Under the pieces are notes generated by a model, which did not search any database, was not told where the DNA came from, and saw only the letters and a list, made by a program, of their open reading frames with translations. A DNA stretch of 64,000 nucleotides, from contig JAHBXE010000004.1 in the NCBI GenBank assembly GCA_019636625.1, positions 62,001 through 126,000 of the forward strand. Direction: 5' to 3'. This DNA is from Phycisphaeraceae bacterium. Its GTDB lineage: Bacteria; Planctomycetota; Phycisphaerae; Phycisphaerales; UBA1924. The stretch's first letter is position 1. Each line of letters begins with the position of its first letter. A program made the translations under genes and the position numbers. Below are positions 38,996-51,672 of the stretch, piece after piece.

Positions 38996-39817
38996 ATGAT
39001 GAAGACGATGACGCGTGGGGCCGGTGCGCCCCGGGTCGAACTCCCATCGCCCGAGCTTTGGGTCGAGTACAAGCGGCGACCCACGATCCCGGTGCGGAAC
39101 CTCATCATCGAGGCCTACCTCCCGCTGATCCGCACCATTGCCGCCCGAGTGAAGCAGAATCTCCCCGCGCAGGTCGAAGTCGAGGACCTTGTTTCCGCCG
39201 GTTGTTTCGGTCTCATCGACTCGATCAAGAAGTTCAACCCGAAGAAGAACACCCGGTTCGACACGTTCTGCGCCAAGCGGGTGCGCGGGGCGATGATCGA
39301 TGCGCTGCGGAAGATGGACCTGCCCAAGCGCCAGGTGCGCGAGCACGAGGCGCTCGTCGCCGAGGTGTGCGACGCTTTCCGTGTGCAGTTCGGCCGGCCC
39401 CCGTGCGATGAGGAGGTGCTCGATCGTCTCCGGGCGCACGGCGACAAGGCCCGGAAGATCCTGCGCAACAGCCGCGTTGCCCGCGTGGGAAGCCTCAGCG
39501 AGCGGGCCGACTCGCGCGGCGAACGGGCACGCACCATGGAAGAAACCGTGGCCGATCCGCGTCGACCCTCGGCGCTCTCCGGGGCCGAGCGGCGCGACCT
39601 CAAGCAGCACGCCCTCCGCACCCTGAATCGAACCGAGAGGCTGGTGATTGAGCTGTACTACAGCGACAACCTGACCATGCGGGAAATCGGCCTCGCCCTG
39701 GGCCTGTGCGAATCCCGCATCAGCCAGATCCGCAGCGTGGTCATGGCCAAGCTTCAGGCGCAGGCCAGGGCCGGCCGCCTGGCCGATCAGGAGGCGGCCT
39801 CAGCCGCGCGGGGATGA
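38996..39817 (+). CDS. FliA/WhiG-family RNA polymerase sigma factor
   Basis: A 273-residue sigma-28-type factor. Region 2 is clear (LIIEAYLPLIRTIAARVKQNLPAQVEVEDLVSAGCFGLIDSIKKFNPKKNTRFDTFCAKRVRGAMIDALRKMD), then a region 3 (FRVQFGRPPCDEEVLDRL) and region 4 (LNRTERLVIELYYSDNLTMREIGLALGLCESRISQIRS). AAGGAG at 38984-38989 precedes the ATG. Members direct flagellar or developmental genes; no flagellar gene is visible here. TATATT at 38925-38930 may be its -10. The 3' end overlaps the convergent membrane-protein gene by 18 bp. Confidence 0.93.
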   Translation: MMKTMTRGAGAPRVELPSPELWVEYKRRPTIPVRNLIIEAYLPLIRTIAARVKQNLPAQVEVEDLVSAGCFGLIDSIKKFNPKKNTRFDTFCAKRVRGAMIDALRKMDLPKRQVREHEALVAEVCDAFRVQFGRPPCDEEVLDRLRAHGDKARKILRNSRVARVGSLSERADSRGERARTMEETVADPRRPSALSGAERRDLKQHALRTLNRTERLVIELYYSDNLTMREIGLALGLCESRISQIRSVVMAKLQAQARAGRLADQEAASAARG

Positions 39818-42752: not shown

Positions 42753-44573
42753 TCACCGCCGGAACGGCATGTCGACGTGGAACGGACGGGCCGACGGCCA
42801 GCGGTCGAGCACCACATCGCCGATGCGGAACTTGATCAGGTCCACACCGTTGTTGACGACAAAGAGCAGGGTGAGCTCCTTGTCGGGCGTGTTCCGCGTG
42901 ACGCGCGGGATCTCGTTGAAGCTCTTGATCGGGTTGGCCTGGGTGTAGCGGATCTCGGTCTTGCTGCTGTCGCGGTAGATCCACCCGACGGCCTGGTAGG
43001 TCACGCCGTTGATGTCCTCGAGCACCGGCAGGGCGTTGGGGTCGGCGGTCTCCAGGTCGCGGACGAACTCCTCCGGCCGCTGCGTCGGCGTGAGCAGCAC
43101 CTTCACCAGCGCCGTGTCGGAGTTGACCGCGAAGCGCTCAATCCGCAGCGCCTTGTCGAGGCCGGATGTATTCCCGCCCCGGCTCCGCGAGATGGACGTC
43201 GTGCCGTCCTGGATCGCCCAGCCCTTGCCATCGTCCACGACGGTGAGCCGCGGCCCTTCGGTTCCCTTCTGGATCACGAAACCGATCGAGGCGGTCACCG
43301 TGACCGGTGTCGTGCTGATGGTCGGTCCGCTGGTCGTGTCCTGGATCGGCTTGCCCTCCGCGTCGAGGATCGGGCCCACGCCGCCCATGTGCGGGAAGTC
43401 GCCTTCCTCGATCTCGCGGTCGCGCTGCGAAACCGAGTCGTACTTCTTCCCCGGGGCCGTGTCCTCCACGCCGAAGCGCACGCCCTTGACAAAGAACGCC
43501 ACCGGCTTGAACCCCGCGGGGACCGCGAACTCGAACGCGAACGTCGGCTCGGACTCCGCCCCGACGCTCGAGATGTACATGTTGTCGCTGTCGTAGCGGA
43601 ACCGCGAATACGCCACGCGCGTGGCGCTGGCCGTCCGGCTCACCACCGCGATCGGGTGCAGCGCCCGACGCTCCGGCTCGCCATCATCCTCCGTGGACTC
43701 CACCACCAGGCGGACCTGCGAGTTCCCGACGTACGTTGATCCGATCCGTTCGCGTGCCGCGGCCTTGAACTTCACCGTGAAGCCCGCGATGTAATGGTTG
43801 CCGGAGATCAGTTCACCGTCGAGATCGCTGAACTTCTGCGGAGAGGCGGACCACTTGTCGGAGAGGATCACGTTCGGTGGGGCCCCCTTCGCCTGGTCAC
43901 CGACGGTGTACCACATCAGCAGGCTCACATCGCGGCGCTTGACCGTGTTGCGGCTCTTGCCCTCGAACGTGAGCCGGAGTTCGCCGGGATAGGTCGCCAG
44001 GTCGGGGTAGTGCTTGGCCAGGGGCTCACCCGTGCGGAGCGTGGTCAGCGAAAGGTGCGAGTACATCCCCGCCACGATCCGGTCCACCCAGGGGACGAAC
44101 GTCTCCTTGTTCTTCTCGATGCTTCCCCGGCCCGCGCCGCCCGTGTACGACGCCGCCTGGTAGCCCAGGAAGTCCGGCTCCACGCGCAGCATGCCCGCCG
44201 AGAGCACCACGATCCCCGCGGAGATGATTCCCGACACCGCGCCGCACACACCGCCGCCGACGTAATCCAGCGCCTTCTCGCACTGGGCGTTGGCGGGGAG
44301 GATCTTGTCGATCACGCCCCGCAGCACCGCCAGGCTGATGGCAAAGGGCAGCGCCAGGCCAAGCCCGAGGGCCGCGCCCGAGAGCCACGCAAACCCGCCC
44401 CGGTCCGGCGCACTCTCGCGCAGCAGATCGGCCAGGATCTCCCACACGCCAAAGGCGATGGCCCCGGCCGCGATCACGCACACCATGTGAATCAGCGCGG
44501 AGAAGAACCCGCGCGTGCACCACACGTACGCGGTGGCGCCGACGATGCCGAGGGTAACAAGGATCATGAACAT
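42753..44573 (-). CDS. CvpA-family membrane protein with long C-terminal domain
   Basis: A 606-residue protein. The first 130 residues contain four membrane helices in the CvpA arrangement (MILVTLGIVGATAYVWCTRGFF, LIHMVCVIAAGAIAFGVWE, WLSGAALGLGLALPFAISLAVL, VCGAVSGIISAGIVVLSAGML). A soluble domain of 470 residues follows, with beta-rich segments (GELRLTFEGKSRNTVKRRD, TFAFEFAVPAGFKPVAFFVKGV). CvpA proteins are linked to colicin V secretion or stress resistance, but the large domain has no known equivalent that I can name. It is the last gene of the pilT group. Confidence 0.8.
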   Translation of the reverse strand: MFMILVTLGIVGATAYVWCTRGFFSALIHMVCVIAAGAIAFGVWEILADLLRESAPDRGGFAWLSGAALGLGLALPFAISLAVLRGVIDKILPANAQCEKALDYVGGGVCGAVSGIISAGIVVLSAGMLRVEPDFLGYQAASYTGGAGRGSIEKNKETFVPWVDRIVAGMYSHLSLTTLRTGEPLAKHYPDLATYPGELRLTFEGKSRNTVKRRDVSLLMWYTVGDQAKGAPPNVILSDKWSASPQKFSDLDGELISGNHYIAGFTVKFKAAARERIGSTYVGNSQVRLVVESTEDDGEPERRALHPIAVVSRTASATRVAYSRFRYDSDNMYISSVGAESEPTFAFEFAVPAGFKPVAFFVKGVRFGVEDTAPGKKYDSVSQRDREIEEGDFPHMGGVGPILDAEGKPIQDTTSGPTISTTPVTVTASIGFVIQKGTEGPRLTVVDDGKGWAIQDGTTSISRSRGGNTSGLDKALRIERFAVNSDTALVKVLLTPTQRPEEFVRDLETADPNALPVLEDINGVTYQAVGWIYRDSSKTEIRYTQANPIKSFNEIPRVTRNTPDKELTLLFVVNNGVDLIKFRIGDVVLDRWPSARPFHVDMPFRR

Positions 44574-44616: not shown

Positions 44617-46353
44617 TCAGGCCTTCGGGGCGGGTTGCTTGGGGGGAGCGGGCTTCGGCGCGGTCGCGGCGGCGGGCTTCGCGGCCGGCGCGGCGGGCTT
44701 CTGCTCCATCGTCACGCGGGAGAGCTCTTCGACGCTGGTGATGCCCTCGAAGGCCTTCTTGAGCGCCGCCTGCTGGATCGTCGGCAGGCCGCGCTTGCGG
44801 AACTCGGCCCGCAGGGCGCTCATGTTGCCGGTCTTGATGAACTCCCGCTCCGCCTTGTCGATCCGGAAGACCTCGAAGATGCCGTCCTGCCCGAGGTAGC
44901 CGATGCCGTTGCACACCGGGCACACCTCCGGCTTGTTCTTGATGAGCACCTGCCCGCCCTTTTTGAAGAGCTGGCGGGGCTTGTCCGAGGGGACGCCGAG
45001 CTTCTTGAGCATGTCCGGCGAGGCCTGGTACGGCTGGCGGCAGTTGACGCAGAGCTTGCGGAGCAGCTTCTGAGCCACAACACCGTGCAGCGACTTGGAC
45101 GCCATGTCCGGGTCGCCCACCGCCTTCATCCAGATGAGGATCGCGGACAGGGCGTTGTCCGTCTTCAGGGACAGGTACGTCCGGGTCCGCTCGTGGTCGG
45201 CACGGGCGATTTCCTTGGCCGTCTGGTCGTCGGGCAGCTCCGCCACGCCCACCACCTGCGGGTCGCGCCGCAGGATGGACCGCGTAAACGTGCTGAACTC
45301 CGGCCCTTCGCCCGCGGACTCGAACACGTTCTGCCGGATGCCCTCCAGCGCCACCTGCGTCTCCAGCTCCACCGTCTGCACGTTCGTCGTGTACGCATCG
45401 TGCATGCGGATGATGCTGTAGAGCGACGTGGTGCGCCCCATGTCCGGCGGCGCGGCCAGCAGCACGACGCCCTTGGCATCCTCCACGATGGCCTTGAGCT
45501 CCGCCATCTGCGGCTCGAGCAGGCCGAGCTCCGCGATCTTCTTGTTTACCGCCTTGGACGGATCGAAGAGCATCGTCATCCGCATGCCGCCCTGGGCGCC
45601 GCTGGATGTGACGCGGAGCGTGTGCTTGTCCACGCCACGCTCGATCGACACGTCGGCCGTCAGCTTCCGACGGCGGTCCTGCAGGTCGAGCTTGCCGGCG
45701 GACTTCCAGAAGTCCATGATCTTGATCGCGTTGGGGCCCGGGATCGTCTGCCCCGGTTGGCGCACGCCGTCCACCAGGTACGACACGGCGTAGTTCGTGT
45801 CCTTCCCGGACGGACCGATGTCCGCCTGAGAGGCTCGCACGTCGAGCGCCTTGGTGACGATGCCCTCGGCCGCGACACGGACTTCGAACTCCGGCGTCTC
45901 CGCCATCGGCGCCGCGAGGGTGGACTTGTCCGGGCTCTTGATGACCAGTTCGACCTTGCCCTGCTTCTTGGCCTCCGCCTTCGCGGCGCGGGTCTCGGCC
46001 ATCTTGGCCAGCATGTTGAACTTGACGTGGAACTCTTCGGGGACCCGGTCGTCCTTGTTCGCGACCACCGCGTACGCGACGAGGTCGATCGCGAGGATGA
46101 CGATCATCACGCCCAGGCCGATCCAGAAGGCCGCCTCGCCCTTGACGGGAATCGCCAGCGCCGCGAATACGGCGAGGACACCGATCGACAGGTGAATGGC
46201 GTTCCACTTCCCGCGCCCAAGGTGGAATCGCGCCGCGTGCTTGTCGTACACGCGAGAAATGATCCACAGCCACCCGACCAGCGGGACCAAGAGGAAGAGG
46301 GGCTTCCAGAACGAAACGAGGAAGAAGCCCTCGGCGAGCATTGGTTGCATCAT
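44617..46353 (-). CDS. Membrane-anchored GspE/PilB-like protein with degenerate Walker motifs
   Basis: A 578-residue protein from the ATG at 46353. Two or three transmembrane helices (about 10-32, 52-70, 74-97) precede a type II secretion ATPase domain. Walker A reads APPDMGRTTS (301-310), with Arg307 in place of the essential Lys; Walker B reads DPQVVGVAEL, and the Asp/His boxes are altered (LSLKTDNA for LSTLHTNDA). The tetracysteine zinc site (Cys 435, 438, 478, 481) is kept. GspE/PilB normally powers pilus or pseudopilus assembly; this one is probably not an active ATPase. An Ala/Pro/Lys tail ends it. Membrane helices in a GspE protein are themselves unusual. Confidence 0.86.
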   Translation of the reverse strand: MMQPMLAEGFFLVSFWKPLFLLVPLVGWLWIISRVYDKHAARFHLGRGKWNAIHLSIGVLAVFAALAIPVKGEAAFWIGLGVMIVILAIDLVAYAVVANKDDRVPEEFHVKFNMLAKMAETRAAKAEAKKQGKVELVIKSPDKSTLAAPMAETPEFEVRVAAEGIVTKALDVRASQADIGPSGKDTNYAVSYLVDGVRQPGQTIPGPNAIKIMDFWKSAGKLDLQDRRRKLTADVSIERGVDKHTLRVTSSGAQGGMRMTMLFDPSKAVNKKIAELGLLEPQMAELKAIVEDAKGVVLLAAPPDMGRTTSLYSIIRMHDAYTTNVQTVELETQVALEGIRQNVFESAGEGPEFSTFTRSILRRDPQVVGVAELPDDQTAKEIARADHERTRTYLSLKTDNALSAILIWMKAVGDPDMASKSLHGVVAQKLLRKLCVNCRQPYQASPDMLKKLGVPSDKPRQLFKKGGQVLIKNKPEVCPVCNGIGYLGQDGIFEVFRIDKAEREFIKTGNMSALRAEFRKRGLPTIQQAALKKAFEGITSVEELSRVTMEQKPAAPAAKPAAATAPKPAPPKQPAPKA

Positions 46354-46635: not shown

Positions 46636-47097
46636 CTACTTTCCCCAGTCTTCCGCGCTGGCCACGATGTCGTCGGTCAGCTTGTCGAGGGCCTTGCGGA
46701 ACACCGCGTTGGTCATGGCGCGGTTGTCGCACGTCAACCCGATCAACAGGGACCCTTTGTCCGAGACGTAGAACTGCGAAGGCTGAATCTTGGCGTTGCG
46801 GCGCAACAGCCGGCCGGCCTTCTCATCGCTCGGACTGTCCGCCAGACGAGCGGTCAGCCAGATGTAGTTGCCGCTGGCGGAGAGCTCGGTGGCCACGGGG
46901 ATGTTGTAGTTTCCCTTCGCCAGCTTGATCTCCCACTTCTTCTCGTTGATCTCTGTCGGCTCGTAGCCAAGCTCCTCGAGGCACTGCTTGAGCCGCGGCG
47001 TTTCCCAGCGGTCATCGTCCGCGGTGATCGGAGCGGGAGTGGCCATGACGACCCCGAAGGACGTGATCGCCAAAGACGCGAGCAAGAACTTTCGCAC
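46636..47097 (-). CDS. Small exported protein (153 aa)
   Basis: A 153-residue protein from the GTG at 47097, with GGGGA about 8 bp upstream. A signal peptide (FLLASLAITSFGVVMATPAPITA) precedes a small alpha/beta domain: RLKQCLEELGYEPTEINEKKWEIKLAKGNYNIPVATELSASGNYIWLTARL. The fold pattern resembles the YbjN-like chaperone type, which is a weak guess. It lies between pilT (upstream, same strand) and the GspE-like gene (downstream), so it may belong to the same pilus-like system. Confidence 0.65.
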   Translation of the reverse strand: MRKFLLASLAITSFGVVMATPAPITADDDRWETPRLKQCLEELGYEPTEINEKKWEIKLAKGNYNIPVATELSASGNYIWLTARLADSPSDEKAGRLLRRNAKIQPSQFYVSDKGSLLIGLTCDNRAMTNAVFRKALDKLTDDIVASAEDWGK

Positions 47098-47178
47098 GGT
47101 AATTTCCCCAGAGTCTTGGACGTCGAGTGTTCCCATGGGCGTCGAGCGAGTCAGGCGCCCTGCTTTCGGTGACTTGCG

Positions 47179-48408
47179 TTAGCGCCGGCCGCCCAGCTTC
47201 TTGAGCCGCATGTTGAGCTCGTCCACGTTCGGGCTGGCCTCCAGGGCGACTCGGACGTGGATGTACTCCTGCTCCACCAGGTTCACCAGCGACTGGTTGA
47301 AGTCGATGTTCCCGGCCTGGATGGCCTCGATGGTCTTGAGGTACTCGCGGAGTTCGCCCTCGCGGGCCTCGAGGATGTACTTCTGAACGACCGTGTTGCC
47401 GATCAGGATCTCCAGCGCCGGGATGCGGTGGATGTGCTCGTGCAGCGTCGGCAGCAGCTTCTGGTACACGAACGCCCGCATCTGGTACGCCAGGATCTTC
47501 CGCACCTGCTCCACTTCATCCGCCTCGAACAGACCGTAAATACGGCTGAAGGTCTGCGTCGCGGAGGAGGCGTGGATCGTTCCGTACACGAGGTGACCGG
47601 TTTCCGCGGCGTGCAGCGCGGCCTCGAACGTCTCCTTGTCGCGCATTTCGCCGACGAGCACGACGTCCGGGTTCTCGCGGACCAGCGCGCGGAGCGCGAT
47701 CTTGAAGTCCAGGCAGTCGATGCCGATCTCGCGCTGGTTGATCGTCGCCTTCTTGTCCGTGAGCAGGTACTCGATCGGGTCCTCGATGGTCACGATGTGG
47801 ATCGCCTTGCGCTCGTTCACGTAGTCGAGCATGGCGGCGATGGTCGTGGTCTTGCCCGAGCCGGTGACGCCCGAGAGGAGCACGATGCCGTTGGGCTGCA
47901 TCGCGACCTCCCCCATGATGGGGGGCATGTGCAGCTCTTCGAACCGCCGGATCTTGCTGCTGATGCGACGGGCCGCCATGGAGAGCTTGCCGCGGGCCTG
48001 GAACAGGTTCACGCGGTACCGCGTGCCCTCGTCGTAGTCGTACGCGAAGTCGGCCGAGCCGAACTTGTGCAGGTCCGCCCATTGCTCCTCGCTCAGGATG
48101 TGCTTGGCGATGGAGATGAACTCCTCCGCGCTCACCGGCTCGGTGTCCAGCGGTTTGAGCGCGCCGCGGATGCGGAGCTTGGGCGGCTGGCCGGACTTCA
48201 TGATGAGGTCGGAGGCTTCGAGCTTGATCGAGGCCTTCAGGAACGACCCGAACCGCGTCGCGTGGGGGTCGTGCTTCTTGTCAGGGTCGAGGGTGACGTG
48301 GCCGACGTGGGAGGCGTCGGTGTGCGATTCACTGATGCTCATCAATCCAGCTCCGTTCTTGGCGGGACCACCGTTGGGGACTTTCGGCACAGGTAGATCG
48401 TGAATCAC
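47179..48408 (-). CDS. pilT: PilT-type type IV pilus retraction ATPase
   Basis: A 409-residue hexameric ATPase that retracts type IV pili. The N-terminal PAS-like half and the Walker A GVTGSGKTTT (about 180-189), the Asp box TIEDPIEYLL, Walker B VRENPDVVLVGEMRD and the His box ETGHLVYGTIHASSATQTFSRIYGLF are all intact. The GTG start is preceded by GGAGG with 7 bp spacing. Unlike the GspE-like neighbour it should be active. No pilin, PilC or PilM-N-O-P genes are adjacent. The first 45 residues are an unusual flexible extension. Confidence 0.93.
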   Translation of the reverse strand: MIHDLPVPKVPNGGPAKNGAGLMSISESHTDASHVGHVTLDPDKKHDPHATRFGSFLKASIKLEASDLIMKSGQPPKLRIRGALKPLDTEPVSAEEFISIAKHILSEEQWADLHKFGSADFAYDYDEGTRYRVNLFQARGKLSMAARRISSKIRRFEELHMPPIMGEVAMQPNGIVLLSGVTGSGKTTTIAAMLDYVNERKAIHIVTIEDPIEYLLTDKKATINQREIGIDCLDFKIALRALVRENPDVVLVGEMRDKETFEAALHAAETGHLVYGTIHASSATQTFSRIYGLFEADEVEQVRKILAYQMRAFVYQKLLPTLHEHIHRIPALEILIGNTVVQKYILEAREGELREYLKTIEAIQAGNIDFNQSLVNLVEQEYIHVRVALEASPNVDELNMRLKKLGGRR

Positions 48409-50101: not shown

Positions 50102-51244
50102 TCAGTTCACGGCCAGCGGTTCTGACCCGGGCTCCGCCGGGATGGCGCCGCCCGGGACGCCGGGCATTCCTTCGGCCGGCGGGACTTCCACCAGCGGACG
50201 GGTTCCCAGGAAGTTGGCCTCGAGCTGGATGCGGATCTTCTCCATCGCCTTGTTCTGGATCTGGCGGACGCGTTCCTTGGTGACGCCGATGATCTGGCCA
50301 ACCTGCTCCAGGGTCATCGGCTTCTCACCCTCGGCCGCCTCGAGCCCGAAGCGGTGCTCGATCACCGTGCGCTCGACATCCGTCAGATCGGCCCGGTTGT
50401 CCAGGACGATCCGCTTGACCTCATCCGCCGCGTCCCGCTCGAACGTCGACCGCTTGGTCTCGAGGAAGTTGCTCCGCTCGAGCTTGGGATCGAAGTCCGT
50501 CGGGAACCGCTGGCGGTACTTGCTCAGCTTCATGCCCTGGCGGCTGAAGGCCTTGAGGATCGCGCGGCAGGCGTACGTGCTGAACTTGTACCCGCGACCG
50601 GCGTCGAACTTGTCGACCGCGCGGAGCAGGGCCATGTTGCCCTCGCTGACCAGATCGGCGAAGTCCACCTCGCTCATGCGGGTGCGCTTGGCCATGGCCA
50701 GAACCAGCGCCAAGTTCGTCTCCGCGATCTGCTCACGGATCCGATCGGCGATGCGGTACCACTTCAGGATCTCTTCCGCCTGCTCCGCCGTTGGCTGCTT
50801 GCTCGGCGTGTCCCACGCCTCGGTCTGGATCTTGTAGATCCGGTACCGCGCGTAGTTGAACTGGTGGAACAGGACCTTTTCTTCCGCGCCGGTCAGGATC
50901 ACCTGCTGCGCGCTCTTGACCGTGCGGCCCTTCGAGCTGGACAGGTCGTCCATCACCGGGTGGTACCACGAGGTGTCCGGCTTCTGGATCTCCGGGGCCT
51001 CGTCGTAGATCTTCTTCTCGGCGCCCTTCTCGTAGAAGGCCGGGCTGTCGATGAAGTCCTGCTCGCAGGACATGATCTGGTTGAGGAGCTTCTCATCCTC
51101 AACCGAAAGCTTCCGGCGCGAGGTCTTCACCTCCGCCGCGCCCGCCTTGCCCGTCTTGACCACCGGGGACGCACTGACCCCGACCCGGTGGCGACGGCGC
51201 ACCTGGTCAAGCGGGCTCGGGGTTGTGCGGTGCACTCGGCTCAT
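50102..51244 (-). CDS. RpoD-like sigma-70-family RNA polymerase sigma factor
   Basis: A 380-residue sigma factor starting at the ATG at 51244, with an AAGGAAGG ribosome binding site. Region 2 is seen in ETNLALVLAMAKRTRMSEVDFADLVSEGNMALLRAVDKFDAGRGYKFSTYACRAILKAF, and region 4.2 in MTLEQVGQIIGVTKERVRQIQNKAMEKIR. The promoter-melting segment differs from the housekeeping factor (RAILKAFSRQG instead of the usual WWIRQ type), and the N-terminal part (about 1-130) is not region 1.1. It is therefore probably an alternative, RpoD-like factor of planctomycetes. A strong terminator follows. Confidence 0.9.
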   Translation of the reverse strand: MSRVHRTTPSPLDQVRRRHRVGVSASPVVKTGKAGAAEVKTSRRKLSVEDEKLLNQIMSCEQDFIDSPAFYEKGAEKKIYDEAPEIQKPDTSWYHPVMDDLSSSKGRTVKSAQQVILTGAEEKVLFHQFNYARYRIYKIQTEAWDTPSKQPTAEQAEEILKWYRIADRIREQIAETNLALVLAMAKRTRMSEVDFADLVSEGNMALLRAVDKFDAGRGYKFSTYACRAILKAFSRQGMKLSKYRQRFPTDFDPKLERSNFLETKRSTFERDAADEVKRIVLDNRADLTDVERTVIEHRFGLEAAEGEKPMTLEQVGQIIGVTKERVRQIQNKAMEKIRIQLEANFLGTRPLVEVPPAEGMPGVPGGAIPAEPGSEPLAVN

Positions 51245-51672
51245 GTTCCTTCCTTTGCTGCCCGGCCGCGGCGCGCTCGCGCTTCGTAGCCTACCGCAGC
51301 GGTTTCTTTCCACCCACGTCCGCCCGCCTCGTGGCGAAGCGGGCGCATCTTCAAGTAGTACGCGAAACGACCCAGTTTGTTTCGCTCTCTTAGAGCGATT
51401 CTAACCAAAATCCGGACACCACCTGACCTGGCGGTGTCCATCCCGCACCAGTCACCGATTGACCACCCCGGACGCCCGGGGTAGGCTCCACACCCGAGTC
51501 CATTGCTGGTTCTCGGGCCCGGTTCGGCGCTTCCAGCGGCCGTTACGGATAGACAGCATACTCGGTTTTCTGCGTCCTGCAAGTTGAAAGTCGCGAAGTA
51601 GGGTGTATTCCGTTTGGTTATTGGACGGGAATCGCGCAATGTCCGACACCCGAATCACTTGAGGAGACTCCC
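51245..51672. other. Divergent control region between the sigma-factor gene and sod
   Basis: This 428-bp gap holds no gene. It contains two small hairpins: TCGCTCT/AGAGCGA (51382-51398) and GGACACC/GGTGTCC (51414-51439). The candidate -35 TTGAAA at 51584-51589 lacks a good -10 for sod, so I do not annotate a promoter. The second hairpin could be an operator or part of the leader of the sigma-factor gene. Confidence 0.45.

Follow-up and report, generated by a model that had tools for sequence, protein, structure and literature searches.

What role is left to a protein that has the fold of a pilus or secretion ATPase but has lost the residues that bind and hydrolyse ATP? The question is raised by one gene in the window, which here means the whole 64,000-nucleotide stretch of DNA that was analysed, from a host genome of 3.7 Mb that is assigned to the class Phycisphaerae on the strength of its named relatives (Phycisphaerales, Phycisphaeraceae or Phycisphaerae bacteria, one being recorded no further than Planctomycetota). 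The initial annotation had described a GspE/PilB-like protein at this position and had taken it for a probable inactive scaffold or regulator that docks to an active ATPase. Both the coordinates and the family assignment are right: the gene occupies 46353..44617 on the minus strand and its product has 578 aa, the long plus-strand ORF over the same stretch being a shadow ORF only. Residues 163-546 match Pfam T2SSE (PF00437; E=4.9e-39, 134.5 bits against a cut-off of 24.9), the homology extends across the N2 and C-terminal domains, as befits a member of T2SSE, and the nearest solved structures are those of GspE, PilB and PilF (best E=1.7e-37). The features of the protein are as follows.

44617..46353, minus strand: P0002, membrane-anchored GspE/PilB-like pseudo-ATPase, 578 aa (family and motif comparisons)
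46057..46308, minus strand: predicted membrane anchor at the N-terminus, three helices within residues 16-99 (AlphaFold model and hydropathy)
45427..45453, minus strand: degenerate Walker A, residues 301-309, APPDMGRTT (motif alignment)
45220..45264, minus strand: degenerate Walker B region, residues 364-378, Glu372 retained, Gly and Arg absent
45151..45174, minus strand: degenerate His box, residues 394-401 (motif alignment)
45040..45051, minus strand: zinc site, first CxxC, C435 and C438 (motif alignment)
44911..44922, minus strand: zinc site, second CxxC, C478 and C481 (motif alignment)

The Walker A motif of the window copy reads A301-PPDM-G306-R307-TT. It has an Arg in place of the Lys, as had been noticed from the sequence, and the first Gly of GxxxxGK[ST] is missing as well. 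The Asp box is altered (TVELE), the Walker B motif (VGVAELPDD) is without the Gly and Arg of GEIRD, and the His box (LSLKTDNA) contains neither His. The earlier description of an altered Walker B and His box therefore needs one qualification, namely that the Walker B Glu is retained. The tetracysteine zinc site (CxxC...CxxC) is complete, also as described. GspE and PilB, the assembly ATPases of type II secretion and type IV pili, are the best sequence match of the pseudo-ATPase and share with it the T2SSE fold, the N2 domain and the tetracysteine C-terminal domain. They differ from it in possessing the Walker A Lys and the His box, and the pseudo-ATPase scores far below the NCBIfam equivalog cut-offs (168.5 versus 630 bits for GspE, 159 versus 676 for PilB). 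They also have a soluble N-terminal domain where the pseudo-ATPase has predicted membrane helices.

Hydropathy places three N-terminal hydrophobic segments ahead of the ATPase-like part, and helices at 16-40, 47-67 and 73-99 appear in an AlphaFold model that is weak overall (mean pLDDT 55.6) and in which the C-terminal ATPase-like domain is unformed, because the underlying alignment held 8 sequences. The membrane segment is absent from all ten PilB/GspE paralogues tested in the same genome, and every T2SSE paralogue there with a P-loop inspected keeps GK[ST] (L014 is a fragment without a P-loop). The initial annotation had contrasted these segments with secretion ATPases, which it described as lacking them; the predicted helices are not special to the dead form, because catalytically intact relatives from other planctomycete families carry them too.

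The pseudo-ATPase is widespread. Within the family and order, with the window's own genome counted, 59 of 61 genomes have clear matches above the level of paralogues, while G005 and G060 give paralogue-level matches only; the 59 copies were aligned, two of them being truncated. A family profile found matches in 298/298 Phycisphaerae genomes, with E below 1e-100 in 278 and between 1e-65 and 1e-99 in the remaining 20, which may be divergent copies, fragments or paralogues. The Phycisphaerae best matches listed individually begin at profile position 22 or earlier, i.e. in the membrane region. A scan of the phylum (392 genomes) separates the matches listed into full-length members (start at position 14 or earlier, at least 350 bits) and paralogues (start at 105 or later, at most 336 bits). 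Full-length members occur in Phycisphaerae and in the families f51, f119, f58, f120, f72, f92, f101 and f118.

Catalytic motifs were compared in 100 Phycisphaerae copies (L131, L132, L136 and 97 others, with L130, L133, L134 and L135 dropped as duplicates) and in 26 copies from other Planctomycetota families. The Walker A Lys is present in 0/100 Phycisphaerae copies and in 0/8 from f92, f101 and f118; it is present in 18/18 from f51, f119, f58, f120 and f72. Outside Phycisphaerae, then, 18 of the 26 loci encode an anchored protein with intact catalytic motifs and eight a dead one. The His-box His follows the same division: none of the 100 Phycisphaerae copies and none of the 8 other dead copies has it, whereas all 18 active copies do. 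The loss of the lysine in Phycisphaerae is not due to chance, and a recent mutation or local oddity, the outcome by which the initial annotation was to be overturned had homologues kept their Lys, is ruled out within this class. Conservation of the Arg, which an alignment of homologues was to settle, is not borne out. Arg occupies the position in 59 of the 100 Phycisphaerae copies, and the others have Leu (14), Val (9), Gly (6), Ile (4), Thr (3), Ser (2), Gln (2) or Ala (1). A conserved functional replacement of Lys by Arg is thereby ruled out. Of the 100 copies, 57 keep the Walker B Glu. By comparison, three residues are kept in 100/100 copies, namely the Gly that precedes the missing Lys, the Glu of the Asp box and the RRDP Pro; the missing Lys is followed by Ser or Thr in 99 copies, and each zinc-site Cys is present in 98 or 99. 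From these counts it follows that residues carrying the fold stay and catalytic residues drift. Two dead copies, L054 and L061, are missing most of the four zinc-site cysteines.

The pseudo-ATPase is maintained under purifying selection, since dN/dS, estimated by a simple pairwise Nei-Gojobori count, is 0.033, 0.063, 0.116, 0.094, 0.069, 0.121 and 0.267 in seven close pairs of dead copies (one further dead pair was saturated). To that extent the idea of an inactive protein stands: lost motifs and low dN/dS together suggest a protein that is probably ATPase-dead and nevertheless kept.

Catalysis was probably lost at least twice. A gene tree calculated without the catalytic columns places the Phycisphaerae copies in one clade and the eight other dead copies in another; a quick version unites both dead clades with a support of 69, and a tree holding f51, f119, f92, f101 and f118 together is not rejected (p-AU 0.68) and is 6.7 log units better. 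The gene tree by itself is indifferent between one loss and two, and fits a descent that follows the species tree. In an RpoB tree of 28 genomes, Phycisphaerae (support 100) stand apart from a clade made up of f51, f119, f92, f101 and f118 (support 99), and a single clade of dead genomes is rejected (p-AU 1.05e-6). Given this rejection, vertical descent and no regain of catalysis, at least two losses are required; the main alternative is the transfer of an active copy. Where catalysis has gone, the anchor, the zinc site and the gene neighbours have mostly stayed.

These neighbours form an operon-like unit in the order PilT-like ATPase, pseudo-ATPase, CvpA-like membrane protein. In the window, the unit comprises the following genes besides that of the pseudo-ATPase.

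47179..48408, minus strand: P0003, ATPase of the PilT family, catalytic motifs intact, lying upstream in the unit (TIGR01420)
46636..47136, minus strand: small protein with a signal-like N-terminus, between PilT and pseudo-ATPase (weak PepSY-like match, E=0.023)
42753..44573, minus strand: P0004, CvpA-like membrane protein, four helices plus a long C-terminal extension (PF02674), 43 bases downstream of the pseudo-ATPase

The initial annotation was silent on the CvpA-like protein, which is the most strictly kept neighbour, more so than PilT. Gene order was compared at 53 Phycisphaerae loci, leaving out L020-L050 (short flanks) and L057, L061 and L071 (truncated), and a CvpA-like gene lies directly downstream of the pseudo-ATPase in 52 of them, the exception being a contig end. 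The same holds for 17 of the 18 active anchored copies of f51, f119, f58, f120 and f72. Outside Phycisphaerae the profile finds a CvpA-like gene at 22/26 loci, and L163, one of the four loci without a profile match, encodes a four-helix PF02674-like protein in the CvpA position. P0004 itself scores below the curated PF02674 cut-off (E=1.8e-4, 22 bits against 29.3); its homologue in L155 lies above it (35.8 bits). A PDB search with the P0004 model (mean pLDDT 56.3) returned no match at E below 0.001. The four-helix inner-membrane domain is common to these proteins and to CvpA, the colicin V production protein, from which the Phycisphaerae proteins usually differ by their long C-terminal extension; in the passages of PMC6705877 that deal with it, the mechanism of CvpA itself is treated as not established.

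P0003 belongs to the PilT family (TIGR01420, 375 bits against a cut-off of 319) and has intact GVTGSGKT and GEMRD motifs. The pseudo-ATPase gene is preceded, on its own strand, by a PilT-like gene whose P-loop is intact in 44/53 Phycisphaerae loci (43 by a strict pattern plus L122; L133, which begins 280 bases before the gene so that an upstream PilT would be invisible, is counted as lacking it), or in 44/59 if the family f8 loci L217-L222 are added. The distance from PilT to the start of the pseudo-ATPase has a median of 73.5 bases (40 loci measured). An intact Walker A is a circular result for the 60 PilT sequences that were chosen by their P-loop pattern; among PilT sequences not chosen in this way it is present in 16/16 strong matches of one set and 17/17 of another. 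An active PilT-like gene upstream at most loci fits the docking proposed at the outset.

It is worth stressing that adjacency to PilT is not specific to dead copies, since outside Phycisphaerae PilT adjoins not only 8/8 dead loci but also 8/18 active ones. The cognate PilT may be encoded at a distance: this is often so in f51, and at the six f8 loci PilT is absent within ~5 kb, with a cognate gene elsewhere in the three f8 genomes searched (G062, G096 and G115). Cognate PilT occurs at 520 bits or more in 45/48 genomes, mostly outside Phycisphaerae, and at 490 bits or more in 64/81 Phycisphaerae genomes; 12 of the 17 without it at this threshold belong to family f11. A cognate PilT can therefore not be obligatory everywhere, which weakens the case for PilT as an obligatory partner. 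In two f92 genomes (L200, L201) PilT is still followed by a dead copy, 442-449 codons long, that has lost its membrane region.

Other genes of the region are less constant. The small protein between PilT and pseudo-ATPase has no homologue in the loci of the other genomes compared. In L113 and L114, PilT and pseudo-ATPase are separated by an FHA-domain GspE whose motifs are intact; it was rejected as a general member of the unit, as six other f8 loci are without it. A relative of FHA-GspE in the window's genome (L010) has no T2SSF (PilC) gene nearby. No PilC/GspF platform gene is present in the unit, the T2SSF genes of the host lying on other contigs or ~71 kb away on the same contig, nor were genes for a pilin or a secretin identified there. 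Further upstream in the window, P0005 (48593-50044) is a secreted-looking protein with a weak beta-propeller match and a repeated Cys-bearing C-terminal segment; relatives lie near the FHA-GspE gene in the same genome (L223). Two genes of the sigma-70 family flank the region (50102-51313 and 38996-39817), and L130 has a similar sigma gene on the upstream side of the unit.

Taken together, we lean towards a reading in which the pseudo-ATPase derives from an active assembly ATPase and now acts, together with CvpA, as a membrane platform that hydrolyses no ATP itself and supports an active motor, likeliest PilT. The ancestor was probably an active, membrane-anchored GspE/PilB-type ATPase that worked with a PilT-like ATPase and a CvpA-like protein. 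Residues for ATP binding and hydrolysis would have been lost, and the fold, the N2 domain, the zinc site and the membrane anchor retained, leaving a protein that may form a membrane-fixed, non-hydrolysing ring or platform. An active ATPase, most often the PilT-like one encoded upstream, would dock onto this platform, which would in turn couple the motor to the CvpA-like membrane protein encoded downstream. We infer the lack of ATP hydrolysis, the formation of oligomers, PilT docking, coupling to CvpA and the link to a pilus or secretion machine from comparisons of sequence and gene order. The fact that CvpA is kept more strictly than PilT suggests that pseudo-ATPase and CvpA, the membrane pair, may form the core, to which different motors could be fitted.

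The same strictness of the CvpA neighbour could be read differently. The domain could bind a nucleotide or second messenger without hydrolysing it and so gate the CvpA-like protein, PilT adjacency being merely historical. We consider such a sensor unlikely, even though f11 retains the pseudo-ATPase/CvpA pair without a cognate PilT and the Gly and Ser/Thr on either side of the lost Lys, along with the Asp-box Glu, are almost invariant; within the P-loop, the positions of the first Gly and the Lys have lost these residues or vary freely, with hydrophobic residues among the replacements, which argues against canonical nucleotide binding. Improbable, in our judgement, are mixed hexamers of alternating pseudo-subunits and PilT or FHA-GspE subunits, with composite active sites formed in trans: a common superfamily fold and adjacent active ATPase genes would allow for them, but PilT and pseudo-GspE are distant within the superfamily. 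Residual ATPase activity through non-canonical residues, such as the Arg in place of Lys and the retained Walker B Glu, would draw on the commonest states of the two positions, yet 41 copies have one of eight other residues in place of Arg and the His-box His is missing from all, so that we regard it as very improbable. A decaying relic without function would explain the lost catalytic residues and can practically be dismissed in view of dN/dS values of 0.03-0.27, the strong profile matches in 278/298 Phycisphaerae genomes and the conserved gene order.

For a non-hydrolysing platform beneath an active motor there is a partial precedent in the type IVa pilus. PilU is reported to retract pili only with PilT present, even if this PilT is ATPase-dead, so that a catalytically inactive ring can be needed by an active one (PMC6762196, PMC6821130). 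In the accounts given there, however, the dead PilT is a mutant or a rare natural variant and is soluble, whereas the pseudo-ATPase resembles GspE, has a predicted membrane anchor and is fixed throughout a class. The closest counterparts are the anchored GspE-like proteins of f51, f119, f58, f120 and f72, which have the same N-terminal anchor and full-length homology to the pseudo-ATPase but keep their catalytic motifs intact. We know of no pseudo-ATPase among pilus or secretion motors that is fixed across an entire bacterial class, and searches of open-licence PMC papers listed none whose title or abstract describes the PilT/pseudo-ATPase/CvpA unit.

Planctomycetes are reported to bear fibres on their crateriform structures and to take up macromolecules by uncharacterised means (PMC5394234), and in Planctopirus limnophila a secretion-annotated cluster is discussed among the essential genes (PMC10632474). 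A tentative and rather doubtful extension of the platform reading is that of a planctomycete-specific membrane motor, in which CvpA and an anchored GspE-like ring, whose catalysis would have been given up on two occasions, would replace the PilC/GspF platform and be driven by a PilT-like, sometimes an FHA-GspE, ring; it could serve a fibre or macromolecule-uptake apparatus of the uncharacterised kind, and a tie of the unit to crateriform fibres or macromolecule uptake is speculation. With active and dead versions of one anchored protein in a single phylum, nature offers an experiment on the functions of the assembly-ATPase fold other than burning ATP, and CvpA-like proteins gain a conserved and testable neighbour.
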